Assembly: GCF_028279465.1 (NCBI RefSeq)
Contig: NZ_JANQNS010000008.1
Coordinates: 62,001 to 126,000, forward strand
From: Parasphingopyxis sp.
Lineage (GTDB): Bacteria; Pseudomonadota; Alphaproteobacteria; Sphingomonadales; Sphingomonadaceae
Length of the DNA stretch: 64,000 bases
Reading direction: 5' to 3'
The number at the start of each line of letters is the position of its first letter. Within the stretch, counting starts at the first letter, position 1. Below, piece after piece: positions 26,517 through 59,240 of this stretch. A program made the translations under genes and the position numbers. Below the pieces are notes generated by a model. That model did no database searches and had not been told where the DNA came from. It saw nothing but the letters and a program-made list of their open reading frames with translations.

Positions 26517-29477
26517 TCAGCCATTCACCATGGAATCGCATCGGCCGCACAATGCGCCGTCTTCGGCTACATCGGGCAGCAGGCGCCAGCAGCGGCCGCA
26601 TTTGTGATGGCTGGTCTTAATCACTTTCACGGTGTCGCTTTCATACTTCGTATCCGCCACGATGCAGATTTCGCTCATATCTTCGGCGGAAATCCCGTCT
26701 ACCGCCGGCATGGCCACTTCCGCTTCGAGGCTGGACCGGATTACCTTGTCGCGCCGCAGCGGTTCGATCGCCTCGGTCACCTGTTCCCGGGCTTCGCGGA
26801 TGGCGGTCCATTTTTCGCCGAGCGCCGCATCTGCCCATGCCGCCTCGATCTCCGGCCATTCCTCCAGATGGATTGACCCGGCATCCGGATAGCGCGTCTG
26901 CCACACTTCCTCCGCCGTGAAGCAGAGGACCGGCGAGGCGTAACGTACCAGCGCGTGGAACAGGATATCGAGCACCGTCCGATAGGCCTGCCGCTTCGCC
27001 GTTCCCGCTGGCAGGCTTTCTCCAACATCGCAATAGAGACAATCCTTGCGGATATCGAAGAAGAAGGCGGAGAGGTCTTCGTTGGCGAAATCGGTCAGCG
27101 CGCGGGCATAGCGGTTGAAAGCATAGTCATTGACCGCGTCCTTCAGCGTCCCATCGAGCTCGGTCAGCAGGTGGAGCACATAGCGTTCGAGTTCGGGCAT
27201 ATCGGCGAGGGCCGTCCTCTCGCTCTCGTCGAAATCCGATAGCGCGCCGAGCATATAGCGAAAACTGTTCCGCAGCTTGCGGTACATGTCGGTGACGCCC
27301 TTGAGGATTTCCGGGCCGATCCGGTGGTCCTCGGTGAAATCGACAGTCGAGGCCCAGAGGCGCAGGATATCGGCGCCGTTCACGTCGATAATCTTCTGCG
27401 GATCGAGCGTATTGCCGAGGCTCTTCGACATTTTCTTGCCCTTGGCGTCGAGCGTCATGCCGTGGGTGAGCACCTCTTTATACGGCGCGCGGCCGCGCGT
27501 GCCGCAGCTCTCGAGCAGGCTCGACTGGAACCAGCCGCGATGCTGGTCGGAACCTTCGAGATAGAGATCGGCTGGGGAATCGAGGTCCGGCCAGTTGTCG
27601 CTCTCGAGCACGAACGCATGGGTCGAGCCGCTGTCGAACCAGACGTCCAAGATGTCCGTGACGACCTCATAATCGTCGAGATCGTAGCGATTGCCGAGCA
27701 GCGCCTGATGATCGGCGGCGAACCAGGCATCGGCCCCGCCGTCGCGCACGGCTTCGACGATACGCGCATTCACCTCGGGATCGTTTAGATAATTGCCGTT
27801 TTTGTCTACGTAGAGTGTGATCGGCACGCCCCAGGCGCGCTGGCGCGACAGCACCCAGTCCGGCCGCCCTTCGACCATGGAGCGCAGGCGTTTATGGCCG
27901 CGTTCGGGGATGAAGCGGGTCTTGTCGATTTCGGACAGCGCGATCTCGCGCAAGGTCGGGCCGATGCCCTTGGCGTGGCCGCGCACCATGTTCCCCTCCC
28001 GCTTGCGGGAGGGGTTAGGGGTGGGTTCTTCTTCCTCGATTTCTATCACGTCATCGATGGAGATGGCCTCGCCCACCCCCTGACCCCCTCCCGCAGGCGG
28101 GAGGGGGGAGTCCATCCGCACGAACCATTGCGGGGTGCAGCGATAGATGACCTTGGCCTTGGACCGCCAGCTATGCGGATAGCTGTGCTCGAAATCGTCG
28201 GAGGCGGAGAGTAGCGCCCCGGCTTCGCGCAAATCCGCGCAGATCGGGCCCTCGGCGGAGTTGAACCGCTTGTTGATGACATTGCCCGCGCGCTCGTCGC
28301 CGCGCGGCAGCCAGAGCCAGTCCTCGCGATAGACGCCATCATCCTCGACCGCGAAGACCGGATCGATGCCATGATCCTTGCACGCGAAGAAATCCTCCTC
28401 GCCATGATCGGGCGCCATATGGACAAGGCCCGTGCCGGCCTCGGTCGTCACATGATCGGCCGCGATAAAGGGGCGTGGCGCAGCGAAGAAACCGCCGAGA
28501 TGATGCATCGGATGGCGGGCGATGGTGCCTGCAAGTTCGGAGCCACTAATACTCCATCTTTCTCCTAGGCTCTCAAACTGAGTTGGGCATACGTCCGCCG
28601 GGAAGCGTTGCAAGAACTCGTCGACCAACGCTTTTGCAATCAAGAAACATTGGTCAACCTCGGTCGCAGTATCACGAGGGTCGGCGACATATACCACTAC
28701 GTATTCAATATCTTCACCGTATGCGATCGCCTGGTTGACCGGGATCGTCCAGGGCGTCGTCGTCCAGATGACGGCATGCGCACCGACCAGTTCCTCGATC
28801 GGGCTTTCGGTGATCTTGAACGTCACATCGATCTGCGTGCTCGTAATATCGGCATATTCGACCTCGGCCTCGGCGAGCGCGGTCTTCTCGACCGGGCTCC
28901 ACATGACCGGCTTCGCGCCGCGATAGAGCTGGCCGCTTTCGGCGAATTTCAGGAACTCCTCGACGATCACGGCCTCGGCGTCGAAATCCATGGTCAGATA
29001 GGGCTTGTCCCATTCGCCGAGCACGCCGAGCCGCTTGAACTCTTCGCGCTGCACATTGACCCAATGGTCGGCATAATCGCGGCATTCCTTGCGGAACTCT
29101 TCGGTCGGCACGTCGTCTTTGGAGCGCTTTTTCTTGCGATACTGCTCCTCGATCTTCCATTCGATCGGCAGGCCATGACAATCCCAGCCCGGCACATAGG
29201 GCGCGTCCTTGCCGAGCAGCGACTGGCTCCGCACGACGAGATCCTTCAAGATCTTGTTCAGCGAATGGCCGATATGGATGTTGCCGTTCGCATAGGGCGG
29301 GCCGTCATGCAGGATGAATTTCTCGCGGCCCTTCCGCGCCTCGCGCAGCTTGCCGTACAGGTCCTGCTCTTCCCAGCGCGCAAGGATGCCGGGCTCTTTC
29401 TGCGCGAGCCCCGCCTTCATCGGGAAGTCGGTCTTCGGCAGGAAAACCGTGTCTTTATAATCGGGCTGTTCGGACAT
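26517..29477 (-). CDS. ileS: Isoleucyl-tRNA synthetase with an in-frame repeat insertion
   Basis: The 986-residue class I synthetase has the HIGH motif at residues 68-71, the CP1 editing-domain Thr-rich peptide (WTTTPWTIPVNQ), the GTGLVHMAPDHGEEDF editing segment, the KMSKS loop (KKMSKSLGN) and a C-terminal zinc finger (CGRCWRLL...CGRCD). The start at 29477 (MSEQPDYKDT) is where similarity begins; the open frame further upstream encodes only repeat DNA. Two oddities are visible. Residues about 457-495 are encoded by a REP-like repeat pair and have no counterpart in the family. Residues about 248-310 use codons unlike the rest of the gene (AGA, CTA, GTA, AGT, ATT). Confidence 0.95.
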   Translation of the reverse strand: MSEQPDYKDTVFLPKTDFPMKAGLAQKEPGILARWEEQDLYGKLREARKGREKFILHDGPPYANGNIHIGHSLNKILKDLVVRSQSLLGKDAPYVPGWDCHGLPIEWKIEEQYRKKKRSKDDVPTEEFRKECRDYADHWVNVQREEFKRLGVLGEWDKPYLTMDFDAEAVIVEEFLKFAESGQLYRGAKPVMWSPVEKTALAEAEVEYADITSTQIDVTFKITESPIEELVGAHAVIWTTTPWTIPVNQAIAYGEDIEYVVVYVADPRDTATEVDQCFLIAKALVDEFLQRFPADVCPTQFESLGERWSISGSELAGTIARHPMHHLGGFFAAPRPFIAADHVTTEAGTGLVHMAPDHGEEDFFACKDHGIDPVFAVEDDGVYREDWLWLPRGDERAGNVINKRFNSAEGPICADLREAGALLSASDDFEHSYPHSWRSKAKVIYRCTPQWFVRMDSPLPPAGGGQGVGEAISIDDVIEIEEEEPTPNPSRKREGNMVRGHAKGIGPTLREIALSEIDKTRFIPERGHKRLRSMVEGRPDWVLSRQRAWGVPITLYVDKNGNYLNDPEVNARIVEAVRDGGADAWFAADHQALLGNRYDLDDYEVVTDILDVWFDSGSTHAFVLESDNWPDLDSPADLYLEGSDQHRGWFQSSLLESCGTRGRAPYKEVLTHGMTLDAKGKKMSKSLGNTLDPQKIIDVNGADILRLWASTVDFTEDHRIGPEILKGVTDMYRKLRNSFRYMLGALSDFDESERTALADMPELERYVLHLLTELDGTLKDAVNDYAFNRYARALTDFANEDLSAFFFDIRKDCLYCDVGESLPAGTAKRQAYRTVLDILFHALVRYASPVLCFTAEEVWQTRYPDAGSIHLEEWPEIEAAWADAALGEKWTAIREAREQVTEAIEPLRRDKVIRSSLEAEVAMPAVDGISAEDMSEICIVADTKYESDTVKVIKTSHHKCGRCWRLLPDVAEDGALCGRCDSMVNG
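27993..28107. repeat. Pair of inverted REP-like palindromes inside ileS
   Basis: Two GC-rich hairpins face each other: CCCCTCCCGC / GCGGGAGGGG at 27993-28014 (10-bp perfect stem) and CCCCCTCCCGC / GCGGGAGGGGG at 28084-28107 (11-bp perfect stem). Each is flanked on the inner side by a matching TTAGGGGTGGG-type tail in opposite orientation, giving a BIME-like unit of 115 bp. On the ileS coding strand it is translated without a stop. Confidence 0.9.
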
Positions 29478-29521: not shown

Positions 29522-29689
29522 CCTCTCCCCTTTTGGGAGAGGGATGTGGAGACTTGCTGAGCAAAGCGAAGCTAGTCGGAGCTGGGTGAGGGGTTCTAAC
29601 CTATCGGATAGGGACGAACCCCTCGTCCAACTCCGCCTAAACTCCTGCGTCGTTAAGGCTCCATATCCTTCTCCCACAAGGGGAGAAGG
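29522..29689. repeat. Complex palindromic element between ribF and ileS
   Basis: Three nested or adjacent hairpins fill the spacer: CCTCTCCC / GGGAGAGG (29522-29542), a central palindrome GAGGGGTTC / GAACCCCTC (29588-29624) with an inner CCTATC / GATAGG, and CCTTCTCCC / GGGAGAAGG (29667-29689). The arms beside the central palindrome remain complementary with a few mismatches (GGAGCTGGG against CCAACTCC). The whole resembles a small non-autonomous palindromic element of ~168 bp; the last hairpin abuts the ribF stop codon and could terminate ribF transcripts. Confidence 0.75.
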
Positions 29690-59056: not shown

Positions 59057-59240
59057 TTTGTCAGACTCGACCTAACGGTCGAGCGCCGCACTAGCCCGCA
59101 CCCCCTCCCGACCTCCCACTTGATGGTACCTTGTTGGGAGGTCGGGAGGGGGTGCGGGCTGGTGCGGCGACATTGCGAAAGCAATGTTCTGAAAAATAAA
59201 TCCCGGTGCCGCGCTCGACCGTTAGGTCGAGTCTGACAAA
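59057..59240. repeat. 184-bp element with 30-bp perfect terminal inverted repeats
   Basis: The first 30 bases (59057-59086) are the exact reverse complement of the last 30 (59211-59240), and each arm itself contains the hairpin CTCGACC-N4-GGTCGAG. Inside lies a second perfect inverted repeat of 26 bp (59093-59118 / 59135-59160) and a small hairpin ACATTGC/GCAATGT (59170-59187). The element begins at the base after the DUF2474 stop and ends six bases before the stop of the convergent symporter gene. No coding sequence is inside. Confidence 0.92.

Follow-up and report, generated by a model that had tools for sequence, protein, structure and literature searches.

A repeat pair translated within the isoleucyl-tRNA synthetase of Parasphingopyxis lies at a recurrent insertion site and resembles the ends of DUF559 nuclease genes

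The window analyzed here, a stretch of 64,000 nucleotides from contig C13 in the 3.3 Mb genome of a Parasphingopyxis species, contains ileS, the gene for isoleucyl-tRNA synthetase, and within its reading frame a pair of facing hairpins of the repetitive extragenic palindrome (REP) type. The site that they occupy in ileS is an insertion hotspot, and the insert observed in this genome is one case of something larger. The insert is probably a gene-less, non-autonomous derivative of an element carrying a DUF559 nuclease gene, similar in kind to a REPIN (a doublet of facing REPs) or to a miniature inverted-repeat transposable element (MITE), and tolerated in a permissive loop of the enzyme. This likely parent, DUF559 genes bounded by the same repeats, goes beyond the account given by the first-pass annotation of the window. 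One could extend the argument and propose that DUF559 genes are the motors of an unrecognized class of alphaproteobacterial REPs, in which a Vsr-like nuclease gene of the PD-(D/E)XK kind spreads as a unit with its facing palindromes, and the ends on their own, without the gene, give rise to repeats between and within genes, the repeated in-frame invasion of ileS among them. We regard this broader proposal as evenly balanced between being right and being wrong.

The ileS gene spans positions 26517 to 29477 on the minus strand and encodes 986 residues, as judged from the open reading frame, a TIGR00392 score of 790.9 bits (cut-off 621.4), the Pfam domain tRNA-synt_1 and the PDB relatives 8c9e and 1ffy. 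The two GC-rich hairpins follow in frame just after the QWFVRMD segment, on the same strand, and are both translated within SPLPPAGGGQGVGEAISIDDVIEIEEEEPTPNPSRKREG. The 5' arm consists of a perfect hairpin with an 11-bp stem (28084 to 28107; CCCCCTCCCGCCTGCGGGAGGGGG in the coding sense), lying inside the peptide SPLPPAGGG, and of an inward-pointing tail, TCAGGGGGTGGG (28072 to 28083). A spacer of 46 nt (28026 to 28071), translated about as EAISIDDVIEIEEEE and shared in its first part with the relative G008, leads to the 3' arm, made of an inward-pointing tail (28015 to 28025; TTAGGGGTGGG on the plus strand) and a second perfect hairpin with a 10-bp stem (27993 to 28014; CCCCTCCCGCAAGCGGGAGGGG in the coding sense), inside NPSRKREG. 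Perfect hairpins, inward tails and an open frame thus bear out the initial description of a REP-like facing pair in frame in IleS. The insert had been placed at 27993 to 28107; the location is correct, and the change is slightly larger, spanning about 27957 to 28109 on the minus strand. Alignment with close relatives, which had been suggested as a way of defining the boundaries, gives 51 residues in this interval (457 to 507), against seven in four other members of the genus. When aligned with 1ffy, the IleS of S. aureus, the sequence breaks between chain residues 416 and 420. The predicted fold of the insert's 136-nt stretch, at -80.4 kcal/mol, is far more stable than that of shuffled sequences (-54.8 +/- 3.7; z = -6.96; 0/200 as good). 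As a detail of the 5' tail (28072 to 28083), it reads TCAG where other genomic copies read TTAG. Since TAG is a stop in the ileS frame used, the change from TTAG to TCAG may reflect selection for an open frame. Palindromes are prone to misassembly, and one might suspect an artefact of assembly or frame; we give this virtually no credence, however, given that in-frame inserts of such a kind occur in many genomes, including one assembled as a single contig (G001, with another repeat type), and that the frame is open throughout.

The state of the site was compared within a set of ten Parasphingopyxis genomes (G000 to G009, G000 being the genome of the window). As ileS of G004 is cut by a contig end, eight relatives are readable. 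Four of them (G002, G003, G005 and G009) have an empty site, with the seven residues E[AK]LESG[KS]. The PLPxAGGG/PTPNPSRxREG pair is found in G000 and G008, a different repeat type (EPVEALS ... PSxSSG) in G001 and G007, and a longer, mixed insert in G006. The claim that the inserted residues have no counterpart in the family therefore holds for these residues, with the exception of the nearly identical pair in G008; what it missed is the recurrent insertion position. A nucleotide tree, in which L039 sits on a long branch, and a quick protein tree both place G000 and G001 among the empty relatives and G008 outside them, and differ in the placement of G003 and G007. A single ancient insertion in the genus was set aside on the strength of these placements, which call for loss, re-gain or local recombination.

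To view the site across lineages, it was read in 80 loci of named genomes, the best of 587, and in 117 stretches of ileS taken from a sample of 119 genomes in the family. Among the 98 of these 117 stretches that could be parsed, 11 show at least two perfect hairpins and five show one; a further 55 carry at least 20 residues without a perfect hairpin, and 27 are shorter and without a hairpin. Facing inverted arms were also tested for in a way that detects imperfect ones, at a threshold of p <= 0.01 against shuffles. Of 202 loci, 154 were parsed, 153 of them distinct and 100 of those with inserts of at least 25 residues. Facing arms were detected in 38 of these 100, compared with 0/198 ileS flanking segments of equal length. 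The notion that repeats of this sort rarely enter essential genes fails for this site, where those 38 inserts have arms of various families. Positive loci include Novosphingobium (L041), Sphingomonas (L046, L048), Sphingobium (L056), Tianweitania (L106) and a Boseaceae bacterium (L112); Devosia has a single hairpin. The types seen at the site, under names coined here, are CCCCTCCCGC, CCCTCTCCC, CCCCTCCCC, CCTCCCCC, the VRAEPVEA type, the MPAKAGIS type and others. In a quick tree of 89 ileS genes, with labels set by hand and the single-hairpin loci L054 and L095 scored as having no pair, the presence of a pair changes state at least 14 times and family identity at least 21 times, counts that do not separate gain from loss.

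All three codon phases are used by the 45 scored hairpins (11, 17 and 17), and translation of the CCCCTCCCGC family gives PLPxAGGG here and PSRLREG in other genera; mixed phases and differing frames of one family argue against a selected peptide. A functional loop specific to IleS was set aside, since near relatives are without it and the inserts vary in sequence, family, length and codon phase. It could still be envisioned that the pair acts in ileS at the level of nucleic acid, either by forming an mRNA hairpin that slows translation between the editing domain and the catalytic one, or by offering a nucleoid protein a site on the DNA. Such a role would suit the very stable predicted structure and the recurrence at one position; it is nevertheless very improbable, considering that the site is empty in half of the readable relatives in the genus, that many lineages have inserts lacking facing arms or have no insert, and that families and lengths vary. 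A precise DNA target site was also set aside, the distance from QWF to the first hairpin varying, by eye, between lineages. Recurrence at this site would seem to reflect tolerance rather than target choice.

Repeat pairs occur at other points of ileS too, namely at reference positions 316, 342-345 and 855, each in more than one lineage. The loci with in-frame pairs at these positions, of the RHSREGGNP/DSRLRG type or other, are L054, L058, L060, L062, L121, L122 and L140; one of them (L060, a Sphingobium metagenome-assembled genome) has repeats at several ileS sites. A separate observation concerns L045, L055, L187 and others, whose site inserts have in common a non-palindromic stretch, about KTRAEKRWEGEGGAxDPADE. 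It is similar to sequence encoded by repeats, for example AQRWEGEGD in L048, and is possibly an old repeat gone native.

Further genomic copies of the hairpins, which the first-pass annotation had proposed to look for, do exist. A search of the genome with the core hairpin pattern, allowing at most one mismatch, finds 13 hits counted by strand, and none for the reversed control; they correspond to six hairpins read on both strands at three places and to one single-mismatch hit. The ileS arm type is accordingly present at three exact places, in addition to further related copies. One of the other two is in carA, where the same pair is read in frame between the small-chain domain and the GATase domain; the third exact CTCCCGC place borders a DUF559 gene on contig C15. 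At the position of the pair, carA is short in G003, G004, G005 and G009 and different in G001 and G002 (G006, G007 and G008 were not parsed). In G004 the pair is in frame in an RNase R-like (rnr-like) gene, named by reading and compared across the genus set without G007 and G008. The first-pass annotation had named two findings as speaking against its account, relatives with the same residues but no palindromes and a lack of other copies of the hairpins; neither turned up.

The link to DUF559 comes from the ends of the elements. There are four DUF559 genes in the genome, and all four have facing hairpins on both sides. The 3' arm in ileS (hairpin plus tail) matches the ends of the C15 DUF559 gene at 33/36 and 32/36 bases, and it matches the 3' arm in carA at 35/36. 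DUF559 is present in 103 of the 119 sampled family genomes. Of 34 DUF559 loci, three (L170, L171 and L182) are cut by contig ends; the remaining 31 comprise the four from this genome and, for the rest, best-scoring DUF559 hits. In this set, 62 hairpins with stems of at least 8 fall within the first 100 bp of the domain edge, as against 0-7 in any of the following 100-bp bins out to 1.5 kb, and hairpins are found on both sides within 200 bp at 28/31 loci, compared with 29/3100 pseudo-genes placed in the same loci. With 13 further loci, one per genome, picked from DUF559-bearing genomes, the count over 44 family loci becomes 34 with facing hairpins within 200 bp on both sides, nine on one side and one on neither. 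In the 34 both-side loci, left and right arms match each other better within a locus (28.3) than across loci (14.5; permutation maximum 19.1; 0/10000). A sample of the class outside the family yielded 28 new loci; once five weak partial hits (L364-L368) were excluded, 11 of the 23 had hairpins on both sides and eight on one side.

The protein itself has the appearance of a nuclease. The residues E8 (43/43 rows), D37 (42/43), E48 (43/43) and D50 (42/43) are kept in an alignment of the 42 of 44 loci that were parsed, the 43rd row being the query, which repeats one locus; the sole PDB sequence match for DUF559 is 3hrl, an endonuclease-like protein. An assignment of DUF559 as a defence gene was set aside, PADLOC giving one protein a weak hit (PDC-S69, E 2e-4) and the other none. 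Mobility of one unit is suggested by the gap between serA and hisZ (names by reading). In the genome of the window this gap holds a DUF559 unit on C12, with the serA stop and hisZ 441 nt apart, and in 7/9 relatives it is empty, at 32-46 nt; no hisZ-like motif was found downstream of serA in the remaining two. The ileS insert has one mark of a MITE, terminal inverted repeats common to it and to a gene-bearing parent in the same genome; the other mark, filled and empty sites showing that the parent moves, is seen for the one unit compared in this way, C12, the unit whose ends the ileS 3' arm matches being that on C15.

REP sequences are common in bacteria, and the familiar agent of their dispersal is the REP-associated tyrosine transposase (RAYT, or TnpA-REP). 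One might therefore imagine that a RAYT spread the pair, as in REPINs, and was later lost from this genome. Facing REP-like pairs are the form expected of REPINs, and loss of the gene is conceivable. Against this stand the lack of any PF01797 (Y1_Tnp) match in the genome of the window, the only one searched, which is 99.99% complete, the lack of GTAG and CGTC in the ileS arms, and the fact that the same ends bound DUF559 genes. A RAYT-borne REPIN was set aside for the first of these reasons, and dispersal by a RAYT since lost appears quite improbable.

If the insert derives from a DUF559 element, its history may be pictured as follows. Two facing REP-type ends without a gene, the same that bound a DUF559 (Vsr-like) gene in this genome, would have entered ileS at the permissive loop right after the QWFVRMD segment. 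The insert would have survived because its total length keeps the frame and its GC-rich arms translate without stops. The protein would have gained only a loop of about 44 residues, probably surface-exposed, disordered and functionally neutral. In many lineages the same spot would have gained, lost or exchanged repeats of other families, the site acting as a filter that lets the enzyme go on working if the length and frame of the insert allow. The movement of the repeat ends would be the work of the DUF559 nuclease, which might cut near a target whose repair then proceeds from a repeat-bearing copy; a cut-and-paste step acting on the hairpin ends is an alternative route.

Several observations weigh against the derivation from a DUF559 element. 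Facing arms went undetected in 62/100 long inserts at the ileS site, and no DUF559 link is apparent for the VRAEPVEA and MPAKAGIS types found there. The 5' arm in ileS, which has one extra G, agrees less well with the C15 ends (28/36 and 27/36, ungapped). The first 30 family loci are best-scoring DUF559 hits and not a random draw; in the class sample, 4/23 DUF559 genes have hairpins on neither side, and L362, counted among the 11 both-side loci, owes its place partly to a different type of hairpin. At serA-hisZ the former spacer has been replaced instead of cleanly split, and neither there nor at carA or ileS did inspection by eye, against distant relatives, reveal a target-site duplication or an exact junction. 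The CCCTCTCCC hairpins of this genome are, by eye from the open reading frames, apparently all outside genes (21/21, counting two at the DUF559 unit on C12), so that entry into genes would be uncommon for this family. Across genomes, CCCTCTCCC hairpins are found in 63/103 of those with DUF559 and 3/16 of those without (raw p = 3e-4), but the excess falls to p = 0.16 after subtraction of two hairpins per DUF559 gene. Repeat number does rise with DUF559 number (Spearman 0.64; 0.29 among carriers after subtraction of two repeats per gene), but a simple link of DUF559 presence to repeat number was set aside, its significance being lost by this correction. Finally, occupancy on the genus trees misfits a single gain, and directly downstream of the site G000 is nearer to G008 (0.83) than to G005 (0.66); local recombination may also play a part.

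Some of these points would suit another account, in which the most length-tolerant loop of IleS collects any DNA, be it REPs, slippage products or other sequence, and DUF559 is not involved. The long inserts without facing arms, the several families lacking a shown DUF559 link and the repeat pairs at other ileS positions all agree with it. A filter of this sort covers retention, however, and not source, and it leaves unaccounted for the matched ends flanking DUF559 genes and their likeness to the 3' arm in ileS. We see it as possible but unlikely.

The window holds other inverted repeats. Immediately upstream of ileS, at 29522-29689, comes a second pair of facing hairpins, this one with longer arms, before a ribF-like gene (by reading); long-arm hairpins resembling it are present elsewhere in the genome (L331, L332 and L339). 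Farther away, positions 59057-59240 contain nested inverted repeats with 35-nt arms that are 97% complementary.

What moves REP sequences outside RAYT systems is, to our knowledge, an open question. A compact nuclease gene with matching repeats on either side, belonging to a gene family that is present in 103 of the 119 genomes sampled, offers a testable answer. Repeats that enter one site of an essential enzyme time after time also form a natural series for studying how mobile DNA gives proteins new loops, and they reveal where IleS tolerates insertions.

These properties invite comparison with known systems. The elements mobilized by RAYT are short facing palindromes with many intergenic copies and a non-autonomous form. 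The ileS insert is like a REPIN in having two facing REPs, a short spacer and several copies in the genome; it differs in that the gene bounded by the repeats is DUF559 and that the genome has no match to the RAYT family. Intragenic REPs with GTAG/CGTC tags have been described in open reading frames, including those of tRNA synthetases (which synthetase is left unspecified) of E. litoralis and S. alaskensis, and Xanthomonas recB offers a same-site intragenic case (PMC3733652). Unlike in those REPs, the tag is absent, on both strands, from the two 36-base arms in ileS, and the relevant passages of that paper describe neither many families recurring at one ileS site nor a DUF559 link. A DUF559 protein of Caulobacter, VsrA, is of the same family as the nucleases discussed here; it was proposed to be a mismatch-repair enzyme, likely a nuclease, with a connection to DNA damage, and DNA-damaging conditions raise its mRNA level (PMC12907096). 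As far as wording on repeats, palindromes, flanking, mobility or transposition in that text goes, it makes no mention of repeats around vsrA or of its movement. Among open-library papers matching DUF559, COG2852, PF04480 or YcjD, none has flanking repeats as the subject of its title or abstract opening, and among the matches listed no title or abstract opening ties DUF559 or Vsr-like genes to REP ends.

Another close parallel is with the Rickettsia palindromic elements (RPE-4, RPE-6 and RPE-7), palindromic repeats that also lie in frame inside housekeeping genes. In the parts of PMC3767692 that bear on our case, ileS is among the genes carrying RPE-7 (Table 1), RPE types are found to differ near the same place in orthologues, and a hotspot reading is discussed. 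In contrast to the Rickettsia elements, the arms described here are GC-rich and occur in Sphingomonadaceae-like genomes and a small number of others; within one genus the ileS site is empty in some members and filled by unrelated families in others; and a nuclease gene is bounded by the same ends.

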